Shown in pieces: positions 3,103 to 19,822 of a DNA stretch of 64,000 nt (position 1 is the stretch's first letter; every line of letters begins with the position of its first letter). The notes under the pieces are model-generated. The model ran no database searches, was not told the DNA's origin, and worked only from the letters and a program-made list of their open reading frames with translations. The stretch is from positions 806,001 to 870,000 of the forward strand of contig NZ_CP065957.1 in the NCBI RefSeq assembly GCF_017310505.1. The letters run 5' to 3'. The position numbers and the translations under genes are program-made. The stretch comes from Methylacidiphilum caldifontis. GTDB lineage: Bacteria > Verrucomicrobiota > Verrucomicrobiia > Methylacidiphilales > Methylacidiphilaceae.

Positions 3103-3104
3103 CT

Positions 3105-5480
3105 TTAAGGACTTGATACCTTTGAAGTTTGGATCGCCGATTGATGAGTAAAATAATAATCGGTTAAAAGAAGATGAAATTCGAAAAGTTCCTTTTCGAT
3201 CTGCTCGATCCAAGGCTTATAAACAAAAACCGGATCCGTGTTTGTCACTCCAGAAGGGCTTGTTGCTTTCAGCTCTTCAGACCACCGTTTCAGTTTCGCA
3301 TTCAGATAACGGATAATAGATAGAGGCTTTGCCGACATGCTGGGGAACCTTTCAATGAACTTGAGCATGGTTTCAACTTGGTCTAAACAAAAGGAAACCG
3401 ACCGAGAGAATTGCTCGTCAAAGAGAAAAAGAGCTATCGCTTTATGGGCAGAAAAAGGATAATGATAAAGACTTCTGTAAGCATATAAAGCTGAAGAGAG
3501 TTTTAATATTTTCTCCAGCAAAGCCAAGAAGTTATATCCTTGGGAATCCTTCTTTTCGATGAGTTTTAAGCAAAACCGACTCAAAAGAATACTAAATCTG
3601 GCCTTTTCATAGAACCGGCCTACCTGAAAAAATTTCCACTGCTCGTTGCGCAAAAGATGCTCATCGATAGCTGACAGGAGTTTGGCTGAATCCAAGGAAA
3701 AGTCAGAAATCAGTTGAGTAGAATCAAGGTTCTTATTTTCAAAAGATTGTTTTTGAAGCTTATAATAAAGGGAACTTAGGGAGATCCAAACTTCAGGGGG
3801 AATGGAATCTCTGATTTTAGCACCGTTTTCAAAGCAACGAGAAATGCAATTGATAACCGAATCTTCCCCTTTCGATCCCATGAAAAACTGAAAAAAAAGG
3901 CTGAGATGGTCTTTGGGATATGAGCTTTTAAAAGCACGAGCTGAAAAATAATCCGCTAGTTCTTTTAAAAAAAAGGAAAGAACTTCGGAATTTTCTAATA
4001 AAGCCTTATCCTCATAACTCCAGAAAGAAAGAATAATGTGATGGAGTTGAAGGGCTCGAGTCAGATATCTTCCAAGCCAGTACATCGACTCGGCAACTCG
4101 ACTTAGGATACTGATCCGATTTTCAGAATAGGGAAGAGAATAAAGGGTTAACTCGGAAGCTCTGGAAAGCTTTTCTTGGTAAAGCCATACATCTTTTAAA
4201 AGAAGCCTCTTTTCATTTTCCTGGCACCCTTTGCCCAGTACAATAGGGAGAAGTTCGGATCGATTTTCTTTGACCACACCATAAAAAACAAAAGAAAAAG
4301 GTTTATAGCTTAGAGAAGAGCCATAAAAAGATGGAAATTTCTTGAAAGAAAGCCTTTTTTGAACAACCAGCGAAGAAAGAACCCTTTGTGGAATTTTCTT
4401 TGCTTTCGCCCAGTCAACCCATTGGTCTATTCCTTGAGGCTCAACCTTTGCCTCTCTATCCTTGAGGATATAATCTGCGGGAGAGTCTAGGAAAAGGGAA
4501 AAGGCATCAGGATCAGATGCAGGATAGGTTGGCAGAGAATTTAACAAAGGTCTTTCTTTCAAGTAAAAAGAGATTATTTTTGAGCCGTAGGATTGGAGAA
4601 GAGGATCGGACACTATCCCACAACCCGCAGCATTAACAAGTTTTAAATTTCCCTTTCTTAAACACCAAAAAAGTCCAGCAATTCCTTGATCTATAGAGCA
4701 TCGATTAGCAATAGGATCAAGTCGGCTATCAGCTATTCTTCTCAAAAGAATAGCGATAGGTTCTAGCCCACCTAAAGTTTTTGCATAAAGCTTGCCTTCA
4801 AGAACGACAAGATCGGTGGATAAAAACAGAGGAATGCCCATCCTCCGAGCAAGGAGTGCCGCTTCCCAGTCTTCGGCTTTTTCTGTCACCAAAGCGACCA
4901 GTCCCTCGTTATCTTCAGGTAGAACTTGACTTAAAGCTTCAAGGATCTTTTCTGGATAGTCCAAACAGCCGAGGGGTTCTACTCCGTTAAACAGCTCGGG
5001 CAGCGTTTCTCTCAGTCCCCTCCTTATCTCTTCAGCAAGCATGATATTCTGGGGTATCTCCAACTCGTCATGGAGTACAATCCAGTTACCGTTTTCTTCT
5101 TTTGCTAGTTCACAAGAAAAAAAATAGCAATACTCTTCTCCTGCGGGGTTCAAATTGACACATTCCCTCCGGTACCTCGGAGAAGAAAAAAAAGGCTCAA
5201 AAGGAATGACTTTGTTCTTAAAAATCGTTTTTTCAAAATAAAGATCTTTTAAAAACTTTCTCCATCCTTTTACTCTCTGTTCTATGCCTGCTCGAATTAC
5301 GACCCAGTCTTCCTCACACAGGATAATAGGCCACGGGTCTATGGAATATTGTTCACCCTTATCCAAGGGATAAGGATATATTCCCATAAGTTCAAAATTA
5401 AGCCCCATGGCTTTCTGGGCCATGTTCAAGTTTTCTTCAACAAGGGAAGAGGCCTGTTTCTCAAGGATCATCTTGGACAT
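3105..5480 (-). CDS. Circularly permuted ATP-grasp (degenerate) fused to alpha-E domain
   Basis: A protein of about 791 residues: N-terminal circularly permuted ATP-grasp (DUF404/DUF407, about 1-460) joined to a C-terminal alpha-E helical domain (about 470-790, opening SRVAESMYWLGRYLTRALQL). The ATP-grasp half looks degenerate. Where the paralogue at 6473-7978 has GCGIGDDKAIYSFVP, this copy has GCGIVSDPLLQSYG, and no clear counterpart of the paralogue's GGYGMLIGP loop can be seen. It may therefore be a scaffold or regulatory subunit. I chose ATG 5478-5480 because GAAGG lies about 9 bases upstream; a TTG at 5511-5513 would add 11 residues. It sits between the alpha-E gene and the transglutaminase, all on the minus strand. 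Confidence 0.82.
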   Translation of the reverse strand: MSKMILEKQASSLVEENLNMAQKAMGLNFELMGIYPYPLDKGEQYSIDPWPIILCEEDWVVIRAGIEQRVKGWRKFLKDLYFEKTIFKNKVIPFEPFFSSPRYRRECVNLNPAGEEYCYFFSCELAKEENGNWIVLHDELEIPQNIMLAEEIRRGLRETLPELFNGVEPLGCLDYPEKILEALSQVLPEDNEGLVALVTEKAEDWEAALLARRMGIPLFLSTDLVVLEGKLYAKTLGGLEPIAILLRRIADSRLDPIANRCSIDQGIAGLFWCLRKGNLKLVNAAGCGIVSDPLLQSYGSKIISFYLKERPLLNSLPTYPASDPDAFSLFLDSPADYILKDREAKVEPQGIDQWVDWAKAKKIPQRVLSSLVVQKRLSFKKFPSFYGSSLSYKPFSFVFYGVVKENRSELLPIVLGKGCQENEKRLLLKDVWLYQEKLSRASELTLYSLPYSENRISILSRVAESMYWLGRYLTRALQLHHIILSFWSYEDKALLENSEVLSFFLKELADYFSARAFKSSYPKDHLSLFFQFFMGSKGEDSVINCISRCFENGAKIRDSIPPEVWISLSSLYYKLQKQSFENKNLDSTQLISDFSLDSAKLLSAIDEHLLRNEQWKFFQVGRFYEKARFSILLSRFCLKLIEKKDSQGYNFLALLEKILKLSSALYAYRSLYHYPFSAHKAIALFLFDEQFSRSVSFCLDQVETMLKFIERFPSMSAKPLSIIRYLNAKLKRWSEELKATSPSGVTNTDPVFVYKPWIEQIEKELFEFHLLLTDYYFTHQSAIQTSKVSSP

Positions 5481-5558
5481 TTTTCTTAGCCTTCGTAAAA
5501 TGCAAGAAATCAATCAGATAAAAACAATTGCCAAAAATAGGTTTAAGCATGAAAAACT

Positions 5559-6467
5559 TTAACCTAGGGATGATAAAAGAGATTGATGGATTGTGTTGCA
5601 TTCGATTTGAATATCTAAAAATATCTTTTTATTCCGTTCAGCCGTAATCCCATTTTTAACTTGTTCAAGGACTTTGGAAAAAAGCTCTTTTGTTTGGGTC
5701 TGGAGCAATTCAATATCCCATTGTTGCGAAAGGACTCCCAGGTAATGAAGCATTTTATCAAGTAAAGAAAGAATGGAATAGGGATAAAGTGAAGAGCCTA
5801 GGATATATAATGCTGTTTTTTCATAGCTAAGCTCATTCATCCCTATTTTCTTCTTTAAAAGATCCCGGATAAAAAGGGAATTAAGGAAAGCTTCCCATTC
5901 TTCATAAGGAGGATCGTCCTTGTTTTCCTCCGGATGATAAGCAAAAAAAAAGGCAGCACAATTACCCACTTTTTCAATGTATTCCCCGATTTTCAACCAG
6001 AGCAAGAAAGGTTCCTCTTCAAAAAGATAATCTTGAAGCTGTCGCATGACGAGAATCTTTTCAATAACCTCTTTAATGAGAGGATAACAAGAGAGTTGGA
6101 AAGGAGAGCTAGCCGTCGTCGATGAAAGCAGAAAATAGGCACTATTAAGATATTCCCAAAGAGGTAAAGGAAGCCAATCCCTAAGTATTTTTGCATTTTC
6201 CCTGGCTGAGAAAAGAGAGCAAAGAGAAGAAAGGGGATTGTCGTGATCGAACAAAACAAAGAAAAGAGTAGATGACAGCTCTCCCTGGATAGGCCCACGG
6301 TTAAAAATTCTCAATCCTTTTTTGATCCTTTCCCAGCAACACGACCATTTTTCTGCCGAAGCTTCTAGTCCATAACCTAGATAACTTTGGCAAACATTCA
6401 AACTCACCAAGGCCCTTTCTATATACCTTGCTGTCCAGTAAATGTTTTCGATTCGCTGTCCGCTCAT
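5559..6467 (-). CDS. Alpha-E domain protein (DUF403)
   Basis: A stand-alone alpha-E protein of 302 residues, almost all helical, with the diagnostic N-terminus SGQRIENIYWTARYIERAL, the same element that opens the fused domain in the next gene. The family always travels with circularly permuted ATP-grasp and transglutaminase genes and is presumed to bind or present the substrate of the ligase; no enzymatic activity is established. The start ATG is at 6465-6467, only 5 bases from the stop of the upstream ATP-grasp gene, so translation is probably coupled. Sequence conservation appears modest over the rest of the protein, but the family call is secure from the N-terminus and context. Confidence 0.83.
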   Translation of the reverse strand: MSGQRIENIYWTARYIERALVSLNVCQSYLGYGLEASAEKWSCCWERIKKGLRIFNRGPIQGELSSTLFFVLFDHDNPLSSLCSLFSARENAKILRDWLPLPLWEYLNSAYFLLSSTTASSPFQLSCYPLIKEVIEKILVMRQLQDYLFEEEPFLLWLKIGEYIEKVGNCAAFFFAYHPEENKDDPPYEEWEAFLNSLFIRDLLKKKIGMNELSYEKTALYILGSSLYPYSILSLLDKMLHYLGVLSQQWDIELLQTQTKELFSKVLEQVKNGITAERNKKIFLDIQIECNTIHQSLLSSLG

Positions 6468-6472
6468 GGATT

Positions 6473-7978
6473 TTATCTTTTTTCATCCTCAACAATCCAG
6501 CTATCTTTGCTCCCTCCTCCTTGGGATGAGTTGACCACAAACGACTGGGAGTCGATAGCGACCCGGGTCAGCCCTCCAGGGATTACCCGAGGCTCTTTGC
6601 CTAAAAGGACAAAAGGACGCAAATCCACTCTTCTTGGCTCTATGGTCCCATCAACAAGACAGGGAAGTTTTGAGAACCAAACTAAGGGTTGAGCAATGTA
6701 ATTTTGGGGATTGGCTAAAATTTTTTGTTTAAATTCTTGTCGTTGTCGAGAAGAACTGACAGGTCCAATAAGCATACCATAGCCCCCCGACTGGCTAACC
6801 TCTTTAACCACCAACTGCTCAATTTTCTCTAAAACATAGCTTCTTTCCTTGGGATTAAAACAACAATAGGTCTCTACGTTGTGCAGTATTGGCTCTTCGC
6901 CTAAGTAATAGCGAATTATCTGAGGAACAAAACTATAGATCGCTTTGTCATCCCCTATTCCACAACCCGGTGCATTGATGATGTTCAGTTTTCCCTCTCG
7001 ATATAGCCTAAATAGTCCTTTAAGCCCAATTAAGGAATCAGGGCGAAAAACCTCGGGATCCAAAAACCCTTCCTCGATACGCCGATAGAGTACAGTGATA
7101 TTTTTTTTAGTTTTTCCAGCCTTGAGGTAAAGCTTTCCATTTTCAATTATCAGCTCTTTAGATTCAACAAGAGCTGTCCCCATCTGGTTGGCTAGAAAAG
7201 AATGTTCAAAGTAGGCTGAGTTATACGGACCCGGAGTCAAAACAGCAACTTGAGCTTGGGGGCAATCAGGGGGATGAAGATCCAAAAACGTTTCTAAAAG
7301 AGCTTTTGGATAAGACTGGATAGGTAAGGGTCTCTGGGAAGAAAAGAAAAAAGGGCAACATTCTTTTAATACCATTCGTGCTGAAAGCATATAGGAAACC
7401 CCACTGGGAATCCTTAGATTATCTTCAAGAACAATAAAGTTACCCTTCTGGTCTTTTAGCAGATCACAGCCACAAACCGCAGCGTAGATCCCTCTAGGAA
7501 CATCAAGCCCAACCATTTGCTCAACAAAGCCTGAAGAATTCAAGACAAGCTCTCCAGGGATCACTTTATCCTTCAGTATTCTCTGTTTATGATAAACATC
7601 CTCAACAAAAAGATTGAGAGCTGTTAGTCTTTGAATCAGTCCTTTTTTTATTTTCTCCCATTCTCTTTTCACGATGAGCCTGGGAATAACATCAAAAGGA
7701 AAAATCCTGTCTTCAGTTTTTTCTTTCCCATTTTTCAATGAAAAAGTAACCCCCAATTGCTTGTACCTGTAGAAAGCTTTTTTCTGAGCCATCATCAACT
7801 TTTCTATGCCTACTCGAGACAGAATCATTTCCCATAGGGATTGATATTCTATTTTGGGATTTCCCAGGATGTTCAAGGATTCATCCTGACCATCAGCTAG
7901 ACTCTTATACTGATCAAAAAAAGAGAACTGGGAAAAATGTGGATTGGCTTTACTGGCAGTGGAAGAAAAAGAAGCCAT
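6473..7978 (-). CDS. Circularly permuted ATP-grasp ligase (DUF404/DUF407)
   Basis: A full-length (501 aa) circularly permuted ATP-grasp protein, first gene of the four-gene operon. It carries the family signatures: FPFDVIPRLIVKREWEKI, the QR-T-AL-LFVEDVY stretch, VLEDNLRIPSGVSYML, NAPGCGIGDDKAIYSFVP, RYYLGEEPILHNVETY and GGYGMLIGPV. ATP-grasp enzymes make amide bonds through acyl phosphates; this group is predicted to form peptide or peptide-like conjugates together with alpha-E and transglutaminase partners. All expected ATP and metal residues look intact, unlike the fused paralogue at 3105-5480. The start is ATG 7976-7978. The 261 bases upstream presumably hold the operon promoter, or it may be read through from the export genes further up on the same strand. 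Confidence 0.87.
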   Translation of the reverse strand: MASFSSTASKANPHFSQFSFFDQYKSLADGQDESLNILGNPKIEYQSLWEMILSRVGIEKLMMAQKKAFYRYKQLGVTFSLKNGKEKTEDRIFPFDVIPRLIVKREWEKIKKGLIQRLTALNLFVEDVYHKQRILKDKVIPGELVLNSSGFVEQMVGLDVPRGIYAAVCGCDLLKDQKGNFIVLEDNLRIPSGVSYMLSARMVLKECCPFFFSSQRPLPIQSYPKALLETFLDLHPPDCPQAQVAVLTPGPYNSAYFEHSFLANQMGTALVESKELIIENGKLYLKAGKTKKNITVLYRRIEEGFLDPEVFRPDSLIGLKGLFRLYREGKLNIINAPGCGIGDDKAIYSFVPQIIRYYLGEEPILHNVETYCCFNPKERSYVLEKIEQLVVKEVSQSGGYGMLIGPVSSSRQRQEFKQKILANPQNYIAQPLVWFSKLPCLVDGTIEPRRVDLRPFVLLGKEPRVIPGGLTRVAIDSQSFVVNSSQGGGSKDSWIVEDEKR

Positions 7979-8239: not shown

Positions 8240-10435
8240 TCAATCTTCTTGCCTAGAAATTAAAAGGGTAGTAAAAAATCGGTAGAGTTTTTCTGCTAGA
8301 ACTGTTCTTTTCCCCTTGATGATCAATTTTGCTCTCATATCTTCTAAGATCAGGGATTGATCCTCTTTAGACAGGGGAATAAAAGCAAAAACGTAAGGAT
8401 TTTTTTCTTGCTGTTCCTTCAAGGTCACGGGAATGACAGGGATTTTCCCTCCGTAAGGAATAAGAAGACCGGGAGGGATTTCTGACCGTTCGACCATCTT
8501 TTGGCCTATTTTTTGGACAACGGTATGAAAAATTTTTCCTGAGCTTATCCAAATGCCCTTGACTTCCGCGCCAGGGAAAACGATACGAGTTTCAGCCTGT
8601 GTTAAGGGGACAATAAAATAGTATCGCTCTAGGTTCCTAATTTTTAAAATCGTTTCTCCCGGCCGAAAATATTTTCCTCTTATCGATTCTATGTCTGGAT
8701 TGATCAGGACACCATCGATGGTCGATTTGAGCATAAGTTCTTCTTTTCTTTTGAGAGCTAGATCAAATTTCTTTCTTGTGGCTTGGAGATCTTGGGATCG
8801 CATCGGAGCACTCTCCTTCTCTTTTCCTTCTCTTCTCCGAGAACTATACTCAAAGGATGAAAAATCAATTCTTTTCATAGCAAGATCCATCCGGGCCAGT
8901 TGTAAGTCCATTTCAACCCGGTCGTTATCCAATCTTAGCAAAGCTTGGCCAGCTTTCACGTGCTGACCACTCCTAACCCATATTTCCTTTACAACACCTC
9001 CATCAGCACTTGCTACATTCTGGCCTAACTGGGACCGGACGACGGCTACGGTTTTTACTTTTTCCCTACAGGGGAAAACCAACAAGATACACAGAACAAT
9101 CAGTCCGAGGCCAAACCCTTTTAATCTTTTTTTTAAAGTTTGACTAAATCCAGGAAAAAAATGGGGGGAAAGAAAAGGAGCCAAGAAGACTTTCATAACA
9201 ACAGCTCCTACAAAAGCCATTTCTACGAAAAAACTTAAAGCTGCCCCGATATTTTCAAGACCTACCTGTTTAAATCCATTGAACAAAACTTTCCCCAAGG
9301 AATGAATGAGGTAAAACATGTAGCAGAGCGCTAAAGTGGAATAAACAAAAAAGATCCAACCTTTAGCTTTATTAACTTTCATCTTTAGTAGTTGCGGATT
9401 TTTATAACCCAAAAGCCAATCTTGAATCTTAGCTGTACAATAGGCAAAGGCTTTTTCCCTTAAATTAGGGATTTCAAGAAGATCCACTAAGACATAATAA
9501 CCATCGAATTTCATTAAAGGATTTAAATTAAAAAAAAGAGTTGTTACACTGGCCGTCACCATTAGATTAAAGGCAAGGTTCTTTGCCATTCCTAAGGGAA
9601 ATAAAATCCAAAGGTGTGCAGCTACCGAAGCGATGATCAGCTCGGTATAAACCCCCGCAGCAGCAATAAAAATCCTGGCTTTTTTATCGGTAATAATCCA
9701 ACTATCAGAAGCATCCACGTAACCCACTGGAATGAAAAAGAAAAAACCTACCCCCATTTCATGAATCTCACCTCCAAAACGACGAGTGGTTGTAGCATGG
9801 CCAAATTCATGAAGGGTTTTGTCAATGGCTGTAGCGATGTAAAGGAAGAAAATATTTTGCGCTGAGAAAAACTGGATCTGATTGGTATCAAAAGCTGAAC
9901 GATGTAAAAAAAGGAAAAAAAGAGTCCAGATCCAAAAGCAGATAGTGATTACCACGCCTTGGGGAGACCAAAGCCACCAGGCCGATCGAACAATCCGATC
10001 CAGCCAGCGAGAAGGATGTATTAAGGGAAGTTTAATAAAGAAAATCTTTAAAAAAAAACCCACTAAAAGCTGGAGAAAAGAATCCCTTCTTCTAGGTATC
10101 TTTGACAAGAGAACATCGGTAGGAAGGATAACTAAATTTCTAGAAACAAGAAGATCTAAAAATTGCAAAACATCCTGGGCACTAATCATTTTATGCGGAA
10201 AATACTTATTATAGTTTTGGGCAATCTCTTCAGCCGATCTTTTCCCATCAAATAAACCAGCAAGAATAGCTTCTGCGTGAGGCAGCCGACAGTAGGTAAG
10301 CCCTAAAGGATCTTTAACTACATAATAAGTTTTGTTATTAAAAATTTGCTTTTGAAATAAAAGATCGGTGCGCAGTTTATATGGAACAATATTTTCGGCT
10401 TTTTTTATCTGGTTTACTACTTCCTGTTTTATCAT
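8240..10435 (-). CDS. PqqD domain - M50 metalloprotease - HlyD adaptor fusion
   Basis: A 731-residue membrane protein with three parts. Residues about 30-105 form a PqqD-like winged-helix peptide-binding domain (KDPLGLTYCRLPHAEAILAG...). Residues about 120-455 are a polytopic site-2-protease-like M50 domain with HEFGH at 209-213 and NLNPLMKFDGYY at 303-314 supplying the zinc ligands. Residues about 460-731 form a HlyD-type biotinyl-lipoyl adaptor (GGVVKEIWVRSGQHVKAGQALLRL). Such a protein could bind a peptide, cut it in the membrane and hand it to a TolC channel. It is the last gene of the export block, 6 bases after tolC, and a second PqqD-like protein is encoded at 15078-15389. The role in peptide maturation is inference; the domain calls are strong. 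Confidence 0.86.
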   Translation of the reverse strand: MIKQEVVNQIKKAENIVPYKLRTDLLFQKQIFNNKTYYVVKDPLGLTYCRLPHAEAILAGLFDGKRSAEEIAQNYNKYFPHKMISAQDVLQFLDLLVSRNLVILPTDVLLSKIPRRRDSFLQLLVGFFLKIFFIKLPLIHPSRWLDRIVRSAWWLWSPQGVVITICFWIWTLFFLFLHRSAFDTNQIQFFSAQNIFFLYIATAIDKTLHEFGHATTTRRFGGEIHEMGVGFFFFIPVGYVDASDSWIITDKKARIFIAAAGVYTELIIASVAAHLWILFPLGMAKNLAFNLMVTASVTTLFFNLNPLMKFDGYYVLVDLLEIPNLREKAFAYCTAKIQDWLLGYKNPQLLKMKVNKAKGWIFFVYSTLALCYMFYLIHSLGKVLFNGFKQVGLENIGAALSFFVEMAFVGAVVMKVFLAPFLSPHFFPGFSQTLKKRLKGFGLGLIVLCILLVFPCREKVKTVAVVRSQLGQNVASADGGVVKEIWVRSGQHVKAGQALLRLDNDRVEMDLQLARMDLAMKRIDFSSFEYSSRRREGKEKESAPMRSQDLQATRKKFDLALKRKEELMLKSTIDGVLINPDIESIRGKYFRPGETILKIRNLERYYFIVPLTQAETRIVFPGAEVKGIWISSGKIFHTVVQKIGQKMVERSEIPPGLLIPYGGKIPVIPVTLKEQQEKNPYVFAFIPLSKEDQSLILEDMRAKLIIKGKRTVLAEKLYRFFTTLLISRQED

Positions 10436-10441
10436 AGCCCT

Positions 10442-11854
10442 TTATTGAGCTGGGAGTTGACCTCCAACGGCATATTCTAAGCGCGCTAGTGCAGCATTAT
10501 AATTAAATCGGGCCTCAGCATTGGCTAATTTAGCTTTAAGCAAAGCTTGTCGAGCCGTTACAGCTTGAACCCAGTTAGTTTCTCCACTTTCAAACAGTTT
10601 CCTTGCTTGATCAAAAGCTTTTTCCGCATCATTCACAGCCGTTTGTTGAAACGCAACAGCCTCCTTAGATCTTTTTATCTGCTGGTAAAGTTCTCTAAGC
10701 TGGGCAGGAATATCAACCTTAAGTTGACTGACTTTAACTTGGGCTATATTTTCCAATGCTTTTTGGGTCTTTATCCTTCCATTATTTTCCATAATATCAA
10801 AAAAATTCCACTGGCCTTGCACGCCCGCCGTCCAGCCCCATTTAGGGTAAAGGATGTAAACATTGCTAATGTTCTCATACTGAAGAAGGGCATCGAGGGT
10901 TGGATAATAGCTGGATTGAGCAGCAGCCACCGCAGCATGAGCAGCCGAAAGTGAATGCAAAGCCTCATTTAAATCAGTACGTTTTTGTAAAGCAATTTTT
11001 AGAGCTTCATCGTAAGGTACTTCGAAGGAAGGTAGATCGTTTTGACCAGCCAGGTAAAGAGGATCATTTTCTTGGCTACTTGGCATATTGAGGATCATTC
11101 TGAGCTGTTCTCTTGCTTTTACATAAGCGGATCTTGCCTGGGCTAGATCTCCAAGAGAAGTTGAGTATTCAGCTTGAGCACTTAAAGCTTGAAATTCAGG
11201 AATCTCTCCTTCTTTAAACATTTTTTGGGTATATTCAGCAATAGCACGACTTGCTTCGGTTAACTCTTCTCTAATTTCCACAACTTCTTGTCTAAAAAGG
11301 GTATAATAAAAAGCTTCCTTGGCTTGAGCCACCGTCCTCAAGGCCACATCCATCGATTGCCATATTACTTTTTCCAAAATCTCTTTTTGTTGCCTGGCTT
11401 CTTTAACCGCTCCCACATTGAGAATCGTTTGTTTTATCTGTACAGCCCCTAGCCAGCTCGTCCGAGTCAGGGGATAAGCTTCTATTGTTGGCAGAAACAT
11501 CAAAAGGGAGCTTTGTTCCCGTTGAGCACGGTAAACTAATCCTCCATGAGGGTAAAGCCTAGCTTTAAACTGCATTTTAATCCCTTCTTGTTGTTCAATA
11601 GCTTTTCGTGCAGAAACAACTTCAGGGTTCGCATCCAGAGCACGTTGGATAACCTCTTCTAATGACCATTTCTTAGTTGTACTCACCTGCAACTGCTTAG
11701 GATAAATCAGTTCAATCGGCTTTTTTATGCTATAAAAAATAGAAATCGAAGGATCAGCGTTTTGTGGGTCGGTAGAAGCCCCCTGAATATCAAGGAGTGT
11801 CAAAAAAGAAAAAAGACTGACCAACAAAAAGAAAAGGGAAAAATCTTTTCTCAT
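10442..11854 (-). CDS. TolC family outer-membrane channel protein
   Basis: A 470-residue outer membrane efflux protein with a signal peptide (MRKDFSLFFLLVSLFSFLTL) and two OEP repeats rich in long helices with alternating Ala/Gln/Glu, for example WSLEEVIQRALDANPEVVSARKA near residue 64 and AAHAAVAAAQSSYYPTLDAL near 305, which is the classic Y-P-x-L of TolC proteins. It would form the trimeric tunnel through the outer membrane for the HlyD-type adaptors encoded on both sides. No ABC or RND pump gene is present in the block, so the energising partner is unknown or replaced by the M50-HlyD protein. It starts with ATG, 6 bases after the stop of the preceding adaptor gene. Confidence 0.88.
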   Translation of the reverse strand: MRKDFSLFFLLVSLFSFLTLLDIQGASTDPQNADPSISIFYSIKKPIELIYPKQLQVSTTKKWSLEEVIQRALDANPEVVSARKAIEQQEGIKMQFKARLYPHGGLVYRAQREQSSLLMFLPTIEAYPLTRTSWLGAVQIKQTILNVGAVKEARQQKEILEKVIWQSMDVALRTVAQAKEAFYYTLFRQEVVEIREELTEASRAIAEYTQKMFKEGEIPEFQALSAQAEYSTSLGDLAQARSAYVKAREQLRMILNMPSSQENDPLYLAGQNDLPSFEVPYDEALKIALQKRTDLNEALHSLSAAHAAVAAAQSSYYPTLDALLQYENISNVYILYPKWGWTAGVQGQWNFFDIMENNGRIKTQKALENIAQVKVSQLKVDIPAQLRELYQQIKRSKEAVAFQQTAVNDAEKAFDQARKLFESGETNWVQAVTARQALLKAKLANAEARFNYNAALARLEYAVGGQLPAQ

Positions 11855-11860
11855 TCGTTT

Positions 11861-12769
11861 TTAAGGGTTTTTCTTAGCTGCATTTAAACCAATGACCGTC
11901 GGGGAATTGGATAAAACCTTTCTTTCCAGCTCAGGAATAACCAGTTCAGCACTTAAGCCAGCAACAACCTTGCTTGAAGAATTAATAACTAGTTTGACTC
12001 GGAATGTTCCACTTGCCGGATCCAAGATAGGATCGACATGTATAACCGTAGCTTCGACTTTTTCACCCGCATAGGGACCATCTACCAGTTCAACAAAATA
12101 TTTATCCTTTGGATGGATCTGGCCAAAGTGCTTTGAATCACAATAAATAACCATCTGAAGCTCAGAGGCATTGACTACCCTGCCCACTGGCTCAAGCCTC
12201 TCTACCGATTCACCCACGTTACGCAATTTTTTAAAAAAAATTCCTTCTATGGGCGAACGGATCATTTTTGATTCAAGCCTGTTTTTTGCTCCTTCCAAGA
12301 GGGCTGTCGCCTCCTTAAATTTGCCCTGGGCCATCTGCAATTGATACTTGATCTCCTCATATTGTTTTGGGCTAATGACTTCTTCCTTATAAAGATTTTC
12401 TATTCTTTTATATTCCATTTGAGCTTTTTCTAATTCCGCTTGGCAAACTGTAACTTCAGCTTCAGCTCTTACCATTTCAGCTCTCTCATCCTCAGTATTT
12501 AACTGGGCAATGATATCTCCTTTTTTGACATAAGCCCCTTCTTCAAAAAAAAATTTCTCTAATATTCCTGCAGCTTTAGCACTGATCCTAACATCCTCCA
12601 CGGGAAGAAGAATTGCTCTATAAGAAGATCTCTCCTCTGAAAAGTTTTCAGTTACTGGGTCAGCCATATTTATACCCAGTAAATTTCCCCCCAGATCGTC
12701 CTGAGCCCAAAGGCGACCGATAGAAAAAATAAAAAAAAACACAATTATTCCCTTTTTAAAACTCGTCAT
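11861..12769 (-). CDS. HlyD/RND-type periplasmic adaptor protein
   Basis: A 302-residue membrane-fusion protein. A signal peptide (MTSFKKGIIVFFFIFSIGRLWAQ) is followed by a split biotinyl-lipoyl barrel (DVRISAKAAGILEKFFFEEG...GDIIAQLN), an alpha-helical hairpin at about 100-170 with charged coiled-coil repeats, the second half of the barrel (MIRSPIEGIFFKKLRNVGESV) and a C-terminal beta barrel (DPILDPASGTFRVKLVI). It bridges an inner-membrane partner to the TolC channel encoded immediately downstream. There is no cognate RND pump nearby, which is unusual for this family. The start ATG is at 12767-12769; 144 bases separate it from the gene upstream, enough for a separate promoter. Confidence 0.87.
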   Translation of the reverse strand: MTSFKKGIIVFFFIFSIGRLWAQDDLGGNLLGINMADPVTENFSEERSSYRAILLPVEDVRISAKAAGILEKFFFEEGAYVKKGDIIAQLNTEDERAEMVRAEAEVTVCQAELEKAQMEYKRIENLYKEEVISPKQYEEIKYQLQMAQGKFKEATALLEGAKNRLESKMIRSPIEGIFFKKLRNVGESVERLEPVGRVVNASELQMVIYCDSKHFGQIHPKDKYFVELVDGPYAGEKVEATVIHVDPILDPASGTFRVKLVINSSSKVVAGLSAELVIPELERKVLSNSPTVIGLNAAKKNP

Positions 12770-12913: not shown

Positions 12914-15046
12914 TTACCAGAAAAAAACATGGATTTTTAGAAACCGGACTATGTCCCTGAAGGCTATTTCACCTAGAGGTCTAATGCCTACGTAAATTTT
13001 GGCTATTCCTCTGAAACCCTTTTTTAATAGTACTGGGTTGATATTCTTTTCTTCCCATGGGATTAGAAAGGAAAATTCATATTTGGCTTTTTCTACTTCC
13101 GCTCCATGAACAAATTGGTCAGTAGAATTTAAAAAAAGCCTATAACTTTTTGTCGGATCAGCGAACAATTTAAAGGATATGGGAAGAGGTTTTCTCTTTT
13201 TTTCCAAAAGATTAGCCAAATAAATGAGATCCTGTTCTTTCAAAAAACCCTTCACTTTCCAATACCTGGGATCAGCAAGTTGAACAAGGACTTCTCCGAT
13301 CTGGGTAACTTCTCCTCTACGAGTAGCAAGGTTGTAAGGTCCCATTACCAGTCCATCTATTGGAGCTCGAATAAAAGTATGCTGGTAATCCTTGTACAAA
13401 CTTTTGAGCATGGCTTGAGATTTCAACGCATTAAGTCGGGCAAGTTGCATCGCGGTTTCCTGTTTTAAGTTTTGTGCTAAGTCCGCTTCAGCCATATTTT
13501 TCTTGTAATCTTGTTCGATCTCCTTGATTTTCAGCCGAATATTTGTCGAATCGAGGGTCATTAAAAGTGCTCCTCTTTTTACATAGTCACCGACTTGAAC
13601 ATGGATGGAATCGATCCGAGCGGATACCATGGCGGGCACAGAAATCTCAAAAGAAGGCAGAAGGACAGCATCGGCCTTGATCTTCATCGGCAAGGGAATC
13701 AATGCTATAGTTCCAAGAAATAAAATTAAAAGGGCAATGAAAACCAGGGGTTTTCTTAGCTGGAATGGATAAAGCCAGGCTTTCTTTTTAAAATAGACTC
13801 GAGCAAAACTTCTGCCTCCAACCAAGCAGATTCTCTGCAAAAGGTTGAAAAGTTCAAGATTTGCTACAATCGGTTCTTGACCTTCCCATGAAAGAAATCC
13901 AAATATTCTTTTTTCATCGTCCATCAAAGGGAAGGCAGCAATCCAATTCATGGGAACTGTATTGAAATAATCGATGATCTCCTTGGGCCTTTCTTTTGAT
14001 CCCCCTTCTCTCATAGCAAAACCAATGCGTAGAGGGCTACGAGAAGTTTCATCTTGAAGTTCTTCCTTTTTGCTGGAGATAATCTTTTCATCCCCAAAAA
14101 GAAAGGAAAAAAAAAGAGTTTTGAGTTTCTTATCCCGTTTCGGTTTTCCTACAAAATATTGAGGATTAGCCACTTTAACTAGCGAAACAACCGCTTCTTT
14201 AAGTATAAGGGCTTGATTAGCATGCTTTTGAATTTCTACAAGGGAGCTTGCTGCTTTTAATTCAAACTGCTGGAGCTGACTAAAATCCTGGGAGAATAGA
14301 AAACTATAGCCTTTGGAATTCAAAGGAACGGCAAAAAGACAACTCCGGTCACATCCAGCCGCCTCTCTAGCGTAGTTGACAAGCAGATGAGCCATTTTAT
14401 CCCTGTCATGCTCATTCATCGCTAACTCCTCGATGTATTTCACGTAAAGGGCAGAAAGGGTTGAAGAAGAGCTCGAATGAACCGTTATATCTTTTATCCA
14501 TTGTCCAAGACAACTGGCTACCGCAAAACTGATAGGAGCTAAGCACTGGTACTGGTGTTCAAGAAAATTTTGGTGATTTTCCCCCTTAAACCAGTAATGA
14601 ATAACTCCCTGAAAATGATCGGCATGGATCAGTGGAAAAAGGAAATGATGTAAAAAATTATGATCCTTGTTATCAAATGGATAAGACCAGACAGCATCAT
14701 AATCAGGAGAAAGTGGCCATGAAAAATAACAAAATCTTTTCTCAAGAAAAGCCTGCTTAAGCTGTTGGTCTAAAAAATTTCTCTTTTCATGGTTCATTTC
14801 CCACGGTAAGGGACCATCACAAGAAGACCAGATTGACCGCCACCCTGATCCTTCTAGCCGGGTTATCTGCATTCCCTGAATGGCTATCTTCAGAGAAAGG
14901 TAGTGAAAAACAATAGGAAACAGCTTCTCAAGGCTTCGGATAGAATTCAACAAAAGGGGTAAATTTTCTGCAAACTTATCTGGTGAAAGAGAAAAAAGAT
15001 TAAAATCAGTTGATTTATTTTCTTTCACTGATTTGAACAAAAGCAA
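12914..15046 (-). CDS. GAF-like domain fused to HlyD-type adaptor
   Basis: A 710-residue protein. The long cytoplasmic N-terminal part (about 1-430) contains a GAF-like segment, for example LVNYAREAAGCDRSCLFAVP and NWIAAFPLMDDEKRIFGFLSWEG, then a single membrane helix at about 437-455 (LVFIALLILFLGTIALIPLP) and a HlyD-type barrel-hairpin-barrel (VPAMVSARIDSIHVQVGDYV...MTLDSTNIRLKIKEIEQDY). The fusion suggests export gated by a cytoplasmic signal. I recall similar GAF-HlyD, HlyD and M50-HlyD triplets in Planctomycetes but cannot check. The start is uncertain: TTG 15044-15046 has AGG just upstream, with another TTG two codons in. It follows the PqqD-like gene by 31 bases. Confidence 0.8.
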   Translation of the reverse strand: MLLFKSVKENKSTDFNLFSLSPDKFAENLPLLLNSIRSLEKLFPIVFHYLSLKIAIQGMQITRLEGSGWRSIWSSCDGPLPWEMNHEKRNFLDQQLKQAFLEKRFCYFSWPLSPDYDAVWSYPFDNKDHNFLHHFLFPLIHADHFQGVIHYWFKGENHQNFLEHQYQCLAPISFAVASCLGQWIKDITVHSSSSSTLSALYVKYIEELAMNEHDRDKMAHLLVNYAREAAGCDRSCLFAVPLNSKGYSFLFSQDFSQLQQFELKAASSLVEIQKHANQALILKEAVVSLVKVANPQYFVGKPKRDKKLKTLFFSFLFGDEKIISSKKEELQDETSRSPLRIGFAMREGGSKERPKEIIDYFNTVPMNWIAAFPLMDDEKRIFGFLSWEGQEPIVANLELFNLLQRICLVGGRSFARVYFKKKAWLYPFQLRKPLVFIALLILFLGTIALIPLPMKIKADAVLLPSFEISVPAMVSARIDSIHVQVGDYVKRGALLMTLDSTNIRLKIKEIEQDYKKNMAEADLAQNLKQETAMQLARLNALKSQAMLKSLYKDYQHTFIRAPIDGLVMGPYNLATRRGEVTQIGEVLVQLADPRYWKVKGFLKEQDLIYLANLLEKKRKPLPISFKLFADPTKSYRLFLNSTDQFVHGAEVEKAKYEFSFLIPWEEKNINPVLLKKGFRGIAKIYVGIRPLGEIAFRDIVRFLKIHVFFW

Positions 15047-15077: not shown

Positions 15078-15389
15078 CTATCCTTGAAAAGAAGGATTTT
15101 TTTCTACTTCGGGTTTTACCAGAATGCCATTCTCGACCAATCGTTGGATAAAAAGATCGATATCTTTCCCCATTTGTTGAGGATCCCCTTCAAAATGCTC
15201 AAAAACCCAATTCCTTAGTGCCTTAATATCTCCTTTTAAGGCAACGAGTTTTTCCCACAACACTGCTCCATAGTTATCTAACTTATAATATTGCCAAGTT
15301 GTAGGATCAACCATGATGATTTCGTTGTCTATCCGTTCATAACAAATCCAATCAGGAATTTCTACCCTATTTATTTCATTTTCTTCCAT
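15078..15389 (-). CDS. PqqD-like peptide chaperone
   Basis: A 103-residue stand-alone PqqD-like protein. The family pattern is clear: WICYERIDNEIIMVDPTTWQ, YYKLDNYGAVLWEKL, then a helical region and FIQRLVENGILVKPE at the end. PqqD proteins (RiPP recognition elements) bind the leader of a precursor peptide and present it to a radical SAM enzyme. Its start ATG at 15387-15389 lies inside the end of the radical SAM gene (overlap of 14 bases), so the two are translationally coupled and almost certainly work together. The likely clients are the small peptides at 17336-18417. The same fold occurs at the N-terminus of the M50-HlyD fusion. Confidence 0.85.
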   Translation of the reverse strand: MEENEINRVEIPDWICYERIDNEIIMVDPTTWQYYKLDNYGAVLWEKLVALKGDIKALRNWVFEHFEGDPQQMGKDIDLFIQRLVENGILVKPEVEKNPSFQG

Positions 15390-16437
15390 AAACTACCTCT
15401 TCAGTTTCCCTTTGCCTCGAATAAATACATTTTCTGTCACTATTATCTTTATGCTTATTTTTATCCTGATATTTTCTCATCATCCTTAGGGCTAAAAGCA
15501 AGCTTTTACCTTCAGAACGAGAAAAATAAGTTCTTAATTTTTCAACTAACCTTTGATCTCTTAAGATATCGATACAGCTGTCACATATGCTTGAATAGCG
15601 CTCTCTTTCTGGGAACAAAACGCCAGGAAAATGATCTTTTAAGATTTTATAGAGTCCAAAAGAACCCGCAAGAGCAATCATTTCTAGAATGGGATCTTCC
15701 TTTCCTTCCTTTAAAATTTCATTTAAAGGCCTCTTTTTTGCATCACCTAAAAACAAAGGAGAATGCTCAGGAGCATAATGGGAAGGACCACAACATGCAA
15801 ATACCCTTCCGTCATATTTGACTACAGGAGCTAAGACAACGCCACATATCCCTTGAGGTGGAGTTTGTTCCCAAAAAAAATCTTCCTCTGGAATAATCTC
15901 TGCTCTGCCTAGCTTAATAAGGGGAATTTTTTCGAGCTGGTATTGGATTTCCCCTAAATCCGGTAAAGCTAACTTGTCGAGAGAAAGGGGTGTGACAACA
16001 CTCCTAATCGTTAAAGGAATTTTTAAGTTCCAAGCGGATTGAGCAACCGCCTTCAATTTCCATTCATTTTTAAAAGCCAAATGATACTGATCCCAGCTTA
16101 TGCATAATCTATCCAACCCTGCAGCATGAACTTGTTGAATAACCTCAAAGGCATGTCTATCAGACCTGACCCATCCACAACCTGTAACAGCCGTAACACC
16201 AAATCCAAGACTCTTGGCTTTAGATATACAGCGAATCAACTTTTCGCTATCCAAAAAGGCTTCGCCTCCCGTAAAACTGATCACAGGGCTAATCCCAACA
16301 GCCTGTTCCAAAAGAGCATAAACAAACTGCTCATCTAATTCTCCTTTAGCATCAGGAGAGGACTCCGTAATGCAATGCGCACAACGAAGTGGGCATTTTT
16401 TCCTCAGCATTATACCTAAGACCTCATAGTTTATCAT
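15376..16437 (-). CDS. Radical SAM/SPASM-type protein
   Basis: A 353-residue radical SAM enzyme. The [4Fe-4S]-SAM motif C-x3-C-x2-C is at residues 15, 19 and 22 (KKCPLRCAHCITESS), with the SAM-binding stretch SFTGGEAFLD after it. The C-terminal half has further cysteines (GICGVV, FACCGPSH, YSSICDSCIDIL) typical of a SPASM or twitch auxiliary cluster. Such enzymes install carbon-carbon or carbon-sulfur links or epimerise residues in ribosomal peptides. Overlap with the PqqD-like gene and nearby small peptides make a peptide-tailoring role the best guess. The chemistry cannot be read from sequence; neither small LESR peptide contains cysteine, which argues against thioether formation. The start ATG is at 16435-16437. 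Confidence 0.86.
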   Translation of the reverse strand: MINYEVLGIMLRKKCPLRCAHCITESSPDAKGELDEQFVYALLEQAVGISPVISFTGGEAFLDSEKLIRCISKAKSLGFGVTAVTGCGWVRSDRHAFEVIQQVHAAGLDRLCISWDQYHLAFKNEWKLKAVAQSAWNLKIPLTIRSVVTPLSLDKLALPDLGEIQYQLEKIPLIKLGRAEIIPEEDFFWEQTPPQGICGVVLAPVVKYDGRVFACCGPSHYAPEHSPLFLGDAKKRPLNEILKEGKEDPILEMIALAGSFGLYKILKDHFPGVLFPERERYSSICDSCIDILRDQRLVEKLRTYFSRSEGKSLLLALRMMRKYQDKNKHKDNSDRKCIYSRQRETEEVVYGRK

Positions 16438-16443
16438 AGATTT

Positions 16444-17296
16444 TTACCGATTGAATGACTGTGAGAGAATCATCTCACAAATTTGAGGTATTTTTTCGAT
16501 TTTTCCCCTTGGAAGAAATAACCGGTAGGTACGTATTTGGGCTAACCATTGTAAGATTTTTTGAACATGAACCCTTTCATCCAGAACAAAAGCACTATTG
16601 AAATAAAGATTACGAAATGCTTTCCCTGGCTCAACCTTTTCAATGAAAGGCTCTTGGTTATCTGTCCAACGCAGAAAAAAAAATAGTCTTAAGAGGTAAT
16701 ATGTGCTTAGAAAAAAGAGTAACAGGCCTACCTATATCCTCCGACTTTCTATAATTACGAAGAAAAGGATGAGCAGGGACAACTAATGGTTCATTCGTTT
16801 CTAAAACAAATCCTGTTCTATCATCGGCAACTAAGTTGTATCCTAGCTCTTGAAAAGCAGCAAGTAAAGTTGACTTTCCTCCTCCAGAGGAAGCCATCAG
16901 ACCTACAGCTTGGGAGTTGACTTCAAATGCCCCTCCGTGAAGAAAAAGGAGTTTTCCGATACACTGTCCAAAAAGGGGTAAAACAAATTGGTAAAAATAG
17001 TATTTAAGCTTTTCTTGATCAAAAGATTTGTAGGCAAAAAAAAGTCGATCCGCATCGATAGTAAACAAAAATTTATCTTCGACAACAATTCTTCTCGGGT
17101 TAAGAAGATAACTTAATGGTCCACAAGACAATAAAGGCTTTTGTTCCATTTCAGGGATAAATTCAACATAAGAAGAATAAAAAGGGTATCTTCCCCAAAT
17201 TACTGGTCCAGAAAACGCCAACTCCTCTATTGAACCTTCCAAGCCAATCCCATAGCCTACCGCATTGCTCTTTATTTTTAAAGCCCAATCTCCCAT
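16444..17296 (-). CDS. HPr kinase-like (HprK) protein, frameshifted at a homopolymer
   Basis: An HPr-kinase/phosphorylase-like protein of the kind found in peptide clusters. Walker A ASSGGGKST is at residues 135-143 and LVADDRTGF follows. As written, the frame stops at 16658-16660 after KTIFFSALDR. Removing one T from the run of nine (A9 at 16675-16683 on the given strand) restores KTIFFLRWTDNQEPFIEKV and about 70 more coding-looking residues, ending at TAA 16444-16446, 6 bases before the radical SAM gene. The full product would be about 283 residues. Relatives in lasso-peptide clusters phosphorylate precursor peptides. The break could be a sequencing or assembly error, polymerase slippage or phase variation; the intact tail argues that any loss is recent. 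The start is ATG 17294-17296. Confidence 0.75.
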
Positions 17297-17335: not shown

Positions 17336-17527
17336 TTATAGTCCGACGGTAGCTAATGCTGTTGCGGCTAATAATTGAGCTCTGGGATCTGGTATCTGAT
17401 TTGAAAAAGAACTTAAATTTCCTAAATGGAAAAAACCCGGACTTTTCCACATAAATTTTACTTTTTCTTTAATCTTTTCTTCAAAGATCTCCAAACTTAT
17501 AATCGGCAGCTGGCTGATGTCTTCCAT
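17336..17527 (-). CDS. Small peptide, candidate precursor
   Basis: A 63-residue product not recognised from any family. It is a credible gene because a strong AAAGGAGG sequence precedes ATG 17525-17527 by about 8 bases, and it is the gene directly upstream of the HPr-kinase-like gene. The N-terminal half is charged and helical (LEIFEEKIKEKVKFMW) and could be a leader; the C-terminus is IPDPRAQLLAATALATVGL. The PDPRAQLLAATA stretch loosely recalls the LESR-x-LFAAAA motif of the two neighbouring peptides, but with one extra residue and at the opposite end, so homology is not proven. There are no cysteines. It is either a precursor peptide or a small accessory protein of the modification enzymes. 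Confidence 0.6.
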   Translation of the reverse strand: MEDISQLPIISLEIFEEKIKEKVKFMWKSPGFFHLGNLSSFSNQIPDPRAQLLAATALATVGL

Positions 17528-17557: not shown

Positions 17558-17992
17558 CTAAATAATCGAAAGAACAGATGTTAAGAGCGGACTGAGCAAA
17601 TCATTAGTCAATCCTGTCACGACATTCAAAACACTATTGACTCCGCTAAGCAAAGGTTGAAGATCCTTAGCCAAATTCAACTCTCCAATTTGAAGAGTAG
17701 CCTGAGGTCCACCAACACCTAGATGTAAAAATATTGGGAACTGATTAGTATTAATGACAGGATCATTTATTTGGGCATGAAACTGAGTAGTTGTCGATGG
17801 TTGACCTTGATTAATATTTAAAAGAGAAAAACCATTCCCGGAACTCGCTGCAGATCCAGAAAATTCTTGAACTCCATTCAAATGAAACAAATGATGGGGG
17901 ATTGCAGCAGCTGCAAAAAGGTGGCGAGATTCAAGTGCTTCGATCTCAAAAAGATATTTTTCTTCATTTAAAAAACCTTTTATCGTATTCAT
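17558..17992 (-). CDS. LESR-LFAA motif peptide 2, candidate exported precursor
   Basis: A 144-residue protein. Residues 16-35 read EIEALESRHLFAAAAIPHHL, nearly identical to residues 11-30 of the upstream neighbour. The middle is polar and rich in Gly, Ser, Asn and Gln. The C-terminus is amphipathic/hydrophobic with VVTGLTNDLLSPLLTSVL, also matching its neighbour. The motif resembles the LEPR-x-LL element known near the N-terminus of large surface proteins in Planctomycetes and relatives, so it may be a targeting or processing signal, with AAAA as a possible cleavage site. The start is ATG 17990-17992, where AGAGGAAAGGA lies just upstream; the frame continues to 18088 without family support. 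The function is not established. Confidence 0.72.
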   Translation of the reverse strand: MNTIKGFLNEEKYLFEIEALESRHLFAAAAIPHHLFHLNGVQEFSGSAASSGNGFSLLNINQGQPSTTTQFHAQINDPVINTNQFPIFLHLGVGGPQATLQIGELNLAKDLQPLLSGVNSVLNVVTGLTNDLLSPLLTSVLSII

Positions 17993-18084
17993 TTTTTTCT
18001 TTCCTTTCCTCTGATATAGACACAGGGGGAGGCTTGTAAAGCAAAACATTAGCCTCCCCCCTACTTTAGTTTTTTTATCAATTA

Positions 18085-18417
18085 TCAAACAATCGCTAAG
18101 ACCGAGCCCAAAAGGCCTGTAACGGTCCCTAGAAGAGGACTTACGATTCCTCCCACCAATCCCGTCACTGGTGTGGTTATTGAGGATAGAGTCGACCCTA
18201 GCCCCGATAAACTGGGTTGATTAACATGAAGGGAAAGATCTGCGGGAAGATTCACGTTGATCATATGTTGGCCATTTACTGGATTGTTTAGTTGCAACGA
18301 AAGATCCAAAGGCAAGTTTAGATTAACAAGATGATGGGGAACAGCTGCAGCAGCAAAGAGCTGGCGTGATTCTAATTCTTCAATTTCAAATTTAGCAAAA
18401 TTAATTTCTGTTTGCAT
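18085..18417 (-). CDS. LESR-LFAA motif peptide 1, candidate exported precursor
   Basis: A 110-residue protein, paralogue of the next gene. Residues 11-30 are EIEELESRQLFAAAAVPHHL. Two imperfect copies of a short beta-like repeat follow: VNLNLPLDLSLQLNNPVNG and INVNLPADLSLHVNQPSLSG. The C-terminus is small-residue-rich and hydrophobic (VTGLVGGIVSPLLGTVTGLL), as in bacteriocin-like or self-assembling peptides. The start is ATG 18415-18417, with AAGGAGGT 7 bases upstream; an upstream in-frame ATG lacks such a site. It is the first gene of the minus-strand block, divergent from the nucleotidyltransferase gene, so the promoter should lie at 18430-18590. It has no cysteine. Precursor status is inference from size, paralogy and context. 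Confidence 0.74.
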   Translation of the reverse strand: MQTEINFAKFEIEELESRQLFAAAAVPHHLVNLNLPLDLSLQLNNPVNGQHMINVNLPADLSLHVNQPSLSGLGSTLSSITTPVTGLVGGIVSPLLGTVTGLLGSVLAIV

Positions 18418-18579
18418 GACTTTTACCTCCTTGATTAAGTTTATTTTCATGTCCTTGTATAATCCTCTAAAGATACACAAGGATATTCGAATAGGGTTTA
18501 TATTAAGATATGATTTCAGTTAATTAAGAAATAAAATTCCTGAAATAAATTATAAAGAATTGCTGATAAAGGATAAGCT

Positions 18580-18595: not shown

Positions 18596-19822
18596 ATGTT
18601 ACAAAATTTAGAAGAAAATGCGGTTTTATTACTGGGAAGAAACAGTGTAGAAGCAAAGCATTGGGGAAAAATAGAAAAGATTTTTTCTTCTAAGTCTTTT
18701 AATTGGGAGCTTTTTTATCAACTCTGTTTTGCTCATGGACTTTGGGGTTTTGTATTCAATAACATTAAGGAACGCTTCATTTTACCGAAAGATATTTATA
18801 TAAGGCTATCTTTACTTTGCCAAAATACTTTAAAAAGAAATCTCTTGCTTCTTGAAGAACAAAAAGAAATTTTAACTCTTTTCAATCAAGAAGGATTGCC
18901 GGTTATTCCCCTTAAAGGAACAGATTTTAATACAAGGACCTATGGAAAAAATTTTGAGTTGAAAACCACTACCGATATCGACCTATTGTTACCTCAAAAG
19001 GATGTCCACAAGGCGATAGATCTACTTCAAAGAAAACTAAACTATTATACCAAAGCCTCAACACGAAAGATAAAGCAGAAGTCAATTCTTTTCTGGGAGA
19101 AGGATATTTCTTTTTACAAGAAAAAAGATCATTTTGATTGCGCGCCTTCAATCTTAGAACTTCATTGGGCATTAGTTTTTAACCCACGGCTTGACTACCG
19201 GGCATTAGAGGCCATCTGGAAAGAAAAGATTCTTGAAAAGTGGGAAAACATCCCCGTGTTGAGAATGAGCCCCCAAAACGAGCTGATTTTCCTTTTAGTT
19301 CACGGCAGTAAACACCGCTGGGAATGTCTTCGTTATGTTGTCGATGTTCACGAATTCATTTTAAAGTGTTCTTTTAATGACAAGCAATGGGATGAAATCG
19401 TCCGCAAAGCTTTTTATTTCCGATGGGAAAGATTTTGCTTCCTTGGGCTTTCGGTTGTCCAAAAACTTTATGAAAGCCCAGTTCCTGAAGAAGTTTTAAA
19501 AAAACTCGGGGAAAACTGGGTTAAAAAGGAAGATATTTTTTCTTCCACACTCCCCTTCCCCTACATTCGCCATTTTAGTCTTTTCGAACTGTTTTCTTCT
19601 CCCATGCATAAGCTTTTGTTTAGCCTTAAATCGTTAAGGTTTCCTTCCGAAGACCTGGTTCAAAAATTTCCCCTCCCCTCTTTTCTCTCCTTTCTGTACA
19701 TCCCTCTATCGGCTTTTTTCAGCTCATGGGCTTGGCTTCGCCGAAATTTCTTTTCCCTTTTCCCCTACAAGCTAAAACTCCAATTAAAAAGCATTGAAAA
19801 ACATCTATCGAATTCACTATAA
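18596..19822 (+). CDS. Nucleotidyltransferase family protein (NTP_transf_5-like)
   Basis: A 408-residue protein of the uncharacterised nucleotidyltransferase group often found in peptide, capsule and lasso-peptide clusters. Visible motifs: PVIPLKGTDFNTRTYG, then the metal-binding TTTDIDLLLP (Asp-x-Asp) and the conserved ILELHWALVFNP. It is transcribed away from the peptide/HprK/radical SAM genes from a shared 180-base gap. In paeninodin-type lasso clusters such proteins accompany an HPr-kinase-like tailoring kinase, so it may transfer a nucleotide or sugar phosphate to a phosphorylated peptide. The exact reaction is unknown. No Shine-Dalgarno precedes ATG 18596. The C-terminal part is rich in Phe, Ser and Leu and may associate with the membrane. 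Confidence 0.82.
   Translation: MLQNLEENAVLLLGRNSVEAKHWGKIEKIFSSKSFNWELFYQLCFAHGLWGFVFNNIKERFILPKDIYIRLSLLCQNTLKRNLLLLEEQKEILTLFNQEGLPVIPLKGTDFNTRTYGKNFELKTTTDIDLLLPQKDVHKAIDLLQRKLNYYTKASTRKIKQKSILFWEKDISFYKKKDHFDCAPSILELHWALVFNPRLDYRALEAIWKEKILEKWENIPVLRMSPQNELIFLLVHGSKHRWECLRYVVDVHEFILKCSFNDKQWDEIVRKAFYFRWERFCFLGLSVVQKLYESPVPEEVLKKLGENWVKKEDIFSSTLPFPYIRHFSLFELFSSPMHKLLFSLKSLRFPSEDLVQKFPLPSFLSFLYIPLSAFFSSWAWLRRNFFSLFPYKLKLQLKSIEKHLSNSL

Follow-up and report, generated by a model that had tools for sequence, protein, structure and literature searches.

The 731-residue protein P0001 (positions 8240..10435, minus strand), encoded within the 64,000-nucleotide stretch of DNA that was analysed here and is referred to as the window, probably acts in the inner membrane as receptor, protease and adaptor at once, within a route that exports proteins tagged at their N-termini with an LExR motif, a function for which we infer the steps of binding, cleavage and transport. 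Computational support is provided by three recognizable folds, by catalytic residues that are both intact and conserved, by a conserved gene neighbourhood, and by the near-exclusive co-occurrence of the fusion with LExR proteins in the Verrucomicrobiota. A broader proposal, toward which we lean with some reserve, is that of an unrecognised secretion pathway in which an RRE-guided intramembrane protease-TolC adaptor exports LExR-tagged proteins of ~110 to ~20,000 aa. One branch would be powered by a shortened SecA paralogue, and for the other, which includes the window and the E. coli plasmids, no dedicated ATPase was found.

The plus strand of 8240-10435 is crowded with stops, and the frame of the fusion lies on the minus strand. 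An earlier note on this DNA had placed a PqqD domain, an intramembrane protease and an HlyD adaptor in this one chain. That observation is confirmed because sequence models and PDB matches, an AlphaFold model and structural alignments assign all three parts. The AlphaFold model, built with 55 aligned sequences, has a pLDDT of 88.8 and a pTM of 0.72. The N-terminal domain, delineated by residues 17-108 (10112..10387, minus strand), displays the PqqD winged-helix, or RRE, fold as judged by profiles, VIA-align and Foldseek, and is the candidate receptor for the LESR tag. It superimposes on the leader-bound lasso RREs TbiB1 and TfuB1 with VIA-align Z values of 10.1-10.3. When the domain was folded alone, the first nine Foldseek rows were TbiB1, PqqD, TfuB1 and a sactipeptide-synthase structure (best E 0.006). 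A profile of the domain run against the PDB sequences matches PqqD (3g2b), TfuB1, TbiB1 and PqqCD. The PqqD model TIGR03859 matches the fusion weakly (21.6 bits, E=1.5e-4). The Pfam PqqD family PF05402 gives no match to the isolated N-terminal domain of the window fusion, and it matches 37 of the 48 aligned N-terminal-domain rows at E<=0.1.

The second domain, residues 188-384 (9284..9874, minus strand), is a site-2 protease (M50) core. PF02163 scores 37.8 bits on the fusion, above its cut-off of 27.2, and the region superimposes on RseP with VIA-align Z values of 9.8-10.2. The zinc-binding and catalytic motif HEFGH is formed by residues 209-213 (9797..9811, minus strand), and an NPxxxxDG-type motif, NPLMKFDGYY (9494..9523, minus strand), supplies Asp 311 as the third zinc ligand. 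HExxH is present in all 47 aligned M50 rows, one of the original 48 (the 457-aa adaptor L080_6227, which is non-M50) having been dropped, and in all 77 proteins of a second set. Asp 311 is invariant in alignments A1 (20 rows) and A4 (55 rows). The third-ligand motif deviates slightly in two of the 47 rows, with SP for NP in L080 and DS for DG in L081.

Residues 443-714 (8294..9109, minus strand) form an HlyD/MacA-type periplasmic adaptor with a barrel-sandwich and an alpha-hairpin. This part of the model superimposes on MacA, MexA and AcrA with VIA-align Z values of ~14-17, and its Foldseek E is 1.5e-13. The adaptor sequence models score lower than their cut-offs: 28.7 bits for HlyD_D23 (PF16576), slightly below 30, and 46.2 bits for TIGR01730, below 94.9. 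The three-domain architecture is conserved among relatives. The three folds are best read, as the earlier note proposed, as a single chain that recognises a leader, cleaves within the membrane and docks to TolC.

The genes that surround the fusion lie, unless stated otherwise, on the minus strand. A TolC-family outer-membrane channel (10442..11854; PF02321, 140 bits) is followed by an HlyD/RND-type periplasmic adaptor (11861..12769; TIGR01730, 153 bits, above cut-off) and by a large adaptor with a C-terminal HlyD domain (12914..15046; PF13437, 33.6 bits), so that genes for an M50-HlyD protein, a large adaptor and an HlyD protein occur together in the locus. The large adaptor is homologous to the GAF-HlyD adaptors of relatives; no GAF domain was detected in it, and one is present in the relative L048. 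Next come a stand-alone PqqD/RRE protein (15078..15389; PF05402, 42.6 bits), a radical SAM protein closest to the YydG-type peptide epimerases (15376..16437; TIGR04078, 110.4 bits, below the cut-off of 300) and an HprK-like kinase (16658..17296; TIGR04352, E 7e-7). The HprK-like gene as a whole spans 16443-17296, and its reading frame breaks down towards the 3' part; of the sister loci, L036 and L038 have an intact gene, and that of L037 is split. A 63-aa ORF (17336..17527), whose end reads DPRAQLLAATALATVGL, is kept in the three sister loci and thus occurs in all four members of the genus examined; it is a possible extra peptide substrate and may be acted upon by the radical SAM protein. An NTP_transf_5 protein (18596..19822, plus strand; PF14907, 138.6 bits) is a divergent neighbour conserved in the genus.

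The three same-genus loci display the gene order of the window: LESR1, LESR2, the 63-aa ORF, HprK-like, radical SAM, PqqD, large adaptor, HlyD and fusion. The TolC gene is present in the window and absent from the three sister loci. In one of these (L038, 9357-11526, genome G149) the fusion gene runs over several frames and represents a pseudogene, a split gene or a sequencing error. Downstream of the window fusion, at 2245-7978, lie circularly permuted ATP-grasp, alpha-E and transglutaminase genes, and ORFs of similar lengths come after the fusion in the three sister loci.

The putative cargo of the window is encoded at the far end of the cluster. LESR2 (17558..18088, minus strand) carries the tag FEIEALESRHLFAAAAIPHH; its likely ATG, with a ribosome-binding site, is near 17992, and the signal profile covers 17888-17965. 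LESR1 (18085..18480, minus strand) carries the tag FEIEELESRQLFAAAAVPHH, with a likely ATG and ribosome-binding site near 18417 and a signal-profile match at 18328-18411. Across the genus the hydrophobic tails of these proteins, SPLLGTVTGLLGSVLAIV and SPLLTSVLSII, are near-invariant. An ExLExRxL(L/F) core can be seen near the N-terminus of both. PF07595 scores 11.7 bits on LESR1, below its cut-off of 25.5, and the LEPR-XLL model NF012209 has zero matches on the LESR proteins of the window. Proteins near fusion loci elsewhere, often thousands of residues long, begin with LExR-x-L-L-S/A or LE(D/E/K)R(I/V)LF(D/E). The common form beside the fusion is an N-terminal LExRx(L/V)(L/F), which corresponds to the orphan "planctomycete export signal", and the two LESR proteins are small members of this LExR-tagged class. 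The longest open frame with the tag is 20,466 aa (G015:C142), and LExR tags on open frames of 13,000-20,000 aa were observed in G018, G088, G157 and G186 as well.

Of 40 fusion loci, 19 contain the motif LExRx[LIVM][LF] at no more than 80 residues from the beginning of an ORF. For 114 scrambled motifs the mean was 1.0 and the maximum 5 of 40, a figure that omits five scrambles keeping xExR (up to 18 loci); with those, the mean of 119 is 1.4. Two profiles were then run on 194 Verrucomicrobiota genomes, namely A2 (LLS/LFAA tags, 12 rows, E<=0.01) and A3 (LFD/LFE tags, 5 rows, with the threshold of E<=1e-5 chosen after the list was seen). All 18 genomes matched by A2 carry the fusion, as do 16 of the 17 matched by A3; at a looser E<=0.1, A3 matches 42 genomes, the additional ones weakly. 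Combined, tagged proteins occur in 34 of the 40 genomes with the fusion versus 1 of the 154 without (Fisher p=1.4e-30, the genomes not being phylogenetically independent). Counted by genus, the tag is found in 24 of 27 genera with the fusion versus 0 of 79 without. The profiles were derived from tags adjoining the fusion, and therefore the fair test is the untrained subset, from which 15 training or same-genus genomes were removed: 19 of 25 with the fusion versus 1 of 154 without (p=1.8e-19, kinship among the genomes remaining).

Six of the 40 fusion genomes gave no tag match (G004, G070, G086, G094, G184 and G187). Since the 194-genome scan scored no more than five candidates in each genome, a missing fusion is to be taken as a soft absence. 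G064 is the sole genome with an LFD-type tag (G064:C87:82880) in which the fusion was not found, owing to loss or to an incomplete assembly; a check of this genome for the fusion returned HlyD-type matches only. Among 11 further fusion-holding genomes or plasmids, A2 matches 9, mostly weakly. In the Planctomycetota, PF07595, a 20-position model that is weak in six frames, matches 10 of 149 genomes at E<=0.01, 5 of which hold the fusion, and so did not separate genomes with the fusion from those without it. The link of the fusion to LESR-type leaders that the earlier note had drawn is strongly backed by the co-occurrence in the 194 genomes; it is a strong correlation between sequence matches.

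The fusion is a widespread family rather than one peculiar to the window cluster. The 40 Verrucomicrobiota genomes were recognized at E<=1e-20, mostly through open frames of ~690-830 aa. In Planctomycetota the fusion is present in 32 of 149 genomes (E<=1e-60, at most seven candidates per genome scored), and a scan with one genome per species gave at least 559 relatives, of which the best 80, mostly from Planctomycetota, were kept. The neighbours of fusion relatives are HlyD adaptors and often TolC. Among the best 80 of the at least 559 loci, many of them short, an HlyD adaptor was seen in 69, a large adaptor in 63, a SecA paralogue in 17, TolC in 11 and the tag, by regular expression, in 9.

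Proteobacterial plasmids, including those of E. coli, carry the family too. One fusion relative matches 75 of 72,556 plasmid records, with 80% or more of the query covered in 15 of them. On Pontibrevibacter and Thalassospira plasmids, giants named LEPR-XLL by NCBI stand beside an adaptor and the fusion, and on two Rhodobacterales plasmids the gene next to the fusion is annotated as a translocase or SecA. On an E. coli plasmid, TolC, two adaptors and the fusion are preceded by an Ig-like protein of 4,459 aa with RFALESRQLFDGAA close to its beginning, and 24 of 5,426 complete E. coli genomes hold the fusion. The RSP-type Ig-like plasmid proteins are reported, in the portion of PMC6764697 available, to exit by a type IV system and were therefore set aside as support.

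A different account of the window, to which we give a minor though real share of belief, is that of a RiPP cluster of the epipeptide kind, whose precursors would be LESR1, LESR2 or the 63-aa ORF. The radical SAM protein would epimerise them, and the fusion would remove the leader and export a small bioactive peptide. The YydG-type radical SAM epimerase is the partner of the epipeptide protease EpeP/YydH/LiaK, and the names of the models suggest likewise. In keeping with such a cluster, the window radical SAM protein is nearest to the YydG-type epimerases, the M50 domain is related to the daptide and YydH/LiaK proteases, PqqD, HprK-like and NTP_transf_5 genes are present, and the short peptides are conserved. 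Against it, every RiPP-model score is below its cut-off, and the radical SAM gene was found in only 4 of the 194 genomes, all of the window's genus. Moreover, the closest fusion relatives outside the genus (L039, L082 and L083) comprise the fusion, both adaptors, TolC and LExR proteins of 461-1,097 aa, and neither radical SAM nor PqqD was found at these loci. The radical SAM and PqqD genes are a genus-specific addition, and the RiPP account is compatible with the export route for this genus only.

These data bear likewise on the idea, put forward in the earlier note, that one kind of leader is read twice, once for modification and once for cleavage and export. This part of the note was not supported. 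The stand-alone PqqD protein shows no more than remote similarity to the fused RRE (hhalign probability 8.5%), and outside the genus the fusion and LExR proteins occur together without radical SAM. Since the radical SAM gene is confined to the genus among the 194 genomes, double reading is a local possibility and no family trait.

That the fusion merely cuts or senses, as a signal peptidase or an RseP-like regulator would, with the tagged proteins leaving otherwise, for example through SecYEG, is unlikely. The protease core does have the RseP fold, and the window genome (G000) contains a single SecA of the ordinary type with the PF07516 scaffold/wing, but the polypeptide itself also contains a MacA-like adaptor, and genes for TolC and for adaptors lie next to its own gene.

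No second SecA is present in G000. Many other fusion loci add a SecA paralogue of ~600-700 aa. All 13 paralogues scanned (L048:6740-8758 and 12 more) match SecA_DEAD, the preprotein cross-linking domain and the P-loop domain, and PF07516 is found in none; therefore they would be without parts used by ordinary SecA. One further open frame, L055:6397-8943, had been guessed to be SecA, and the scan showed otherwise. More than one SecA match was found in 13 of 18 genomes with A2 tags versus 0 of 17 with A3 tags and, overall, in 15 of 40 genomes with the fusion versus 9 of 154 without. The version with LLS tags usually comes with a shortened SecA paralogue, the probable ATPase.

An ordinary type I or efflux pump with its ABC or RND partner encoded elsewhere is highly improbable, for although an adaptor and TolC, families common to such pumps, are present in the locus and the genome holds two PF00664 ABC exporters, these lie more than 1.3 Mb away with no adaptor in their 1.5-kb flanks, and neither ABC nor RND was found among the cluster genes scanned with Pfam. 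A classical type I system served by an adjacent ABC gene was likewise rejected for the scanned part of the cluster. At the loci of relatives, where a minority of the neighbouring ORFs was scanned for ABC and RND proteins, one Wzt-type ATPase was seen near L039. 

The suggestion in the earlier note that the fusion could replace the ABC transporter is plausible, and in the available text of PMC4452313 the same idea had appeared in 2015 for the SecA-associated version. With one SecA in the genome and no ABC gene in the locus, no motor was found for the window version.

For the export route that we favor, the following sequence of events can be envisaged. In the cytoplasm, the RRE domain would take up the LESR tag as an added strand, in the way that leaders are bound by lasso RREs. 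The LFAAAA(V/I)P stretch that follows the tag would enter the site-2 protease and be cut there, and the HlyD domain, the two other adaptors and TolC would carry the product outward. In this genus the cargo is likely the two small LESR proteins, which the PqqD/radical SAM pair may modify beforehand; outside the genus, the module is accompanied by giant surface proteins.

The link between tag and fusion suggests that protein secretion makes use of a leader receptor of the RiPP type. The open-access papers found assign no machine to the LExR signal and no substrate to the SecA/M50/HlyD locus. Brought together, the two outline a route, amenable to testing, for some of the largest proteins in bacteria, and the copies on E. 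coli plasmids make laboratory tests feasible.

Several known systems share features with the window locus. Closest is the secondary SecA_DEAD/type I-like locus of Kamneva, Poudel and Ward 2015 (PMC4452313), which, in the text available, likewise comprises an M50-HlyD protein, a GAF-HlyD adaptor, an HlyD adaptor and sometimes an OEP; SecA was suggested as the ATPase and M50 as the membrane pore, the role being left unknown. The window differs in having no second SecA and in adding radical SAM, PqqD and the small LESR proteins. In the main text of that paper PqqD, LEPR and M50 do not appear as separate words (the last is written Peptidase_M50), and sections 16-17 name no substrate. The planctomycete cell-surface signal RRLxxExLExRxLLA (Studholme 2004, as cited in the available part of PMC8567305; PF07595) and LEPR-XLL (NF012209) share with the window proteins an LExRxLL/LF core near the N-terminus of presumed exported proteins, whereas the LESR proteins score below both models. 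The portion of PMC8567305 at hand names no export machine for the signal. Within the open-access literature searched, the scope of which excluded subscription papers and preprints, no paper joins the LExR tag to SecA/M50/HlyD machinery.

Among RiPP proteases, the daptide enzyme MpaP, described in the accessible part of PMC10036551 as an RRE-site-2-protease that removes daptide leaders with the motif ELExMEAP, resembles the fusion in carrying an RRE at the N-terminus of the protease. The daptide model NF041824 scores 152.3 bits on the fusion against a cut-off of 300, and the match stops at residue 395, before the HlyD part. The epipeptide M50 protease EpeP (YydH/LiaK) is thought, according to the part of PMC10885120 available, to cleave and export epipeptides, the dual role proposed here for the M50-containing fusion. 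The YydH/LiaK model NF058609 (246 positions) scores 48.5 bits against a cut-off of 225, and the adaptor domain is absent from it. The SecA-associated locus was thus already known in 2015 and the export tag in 2004; new here is that the fusion travels with LExR-tagged proteins.
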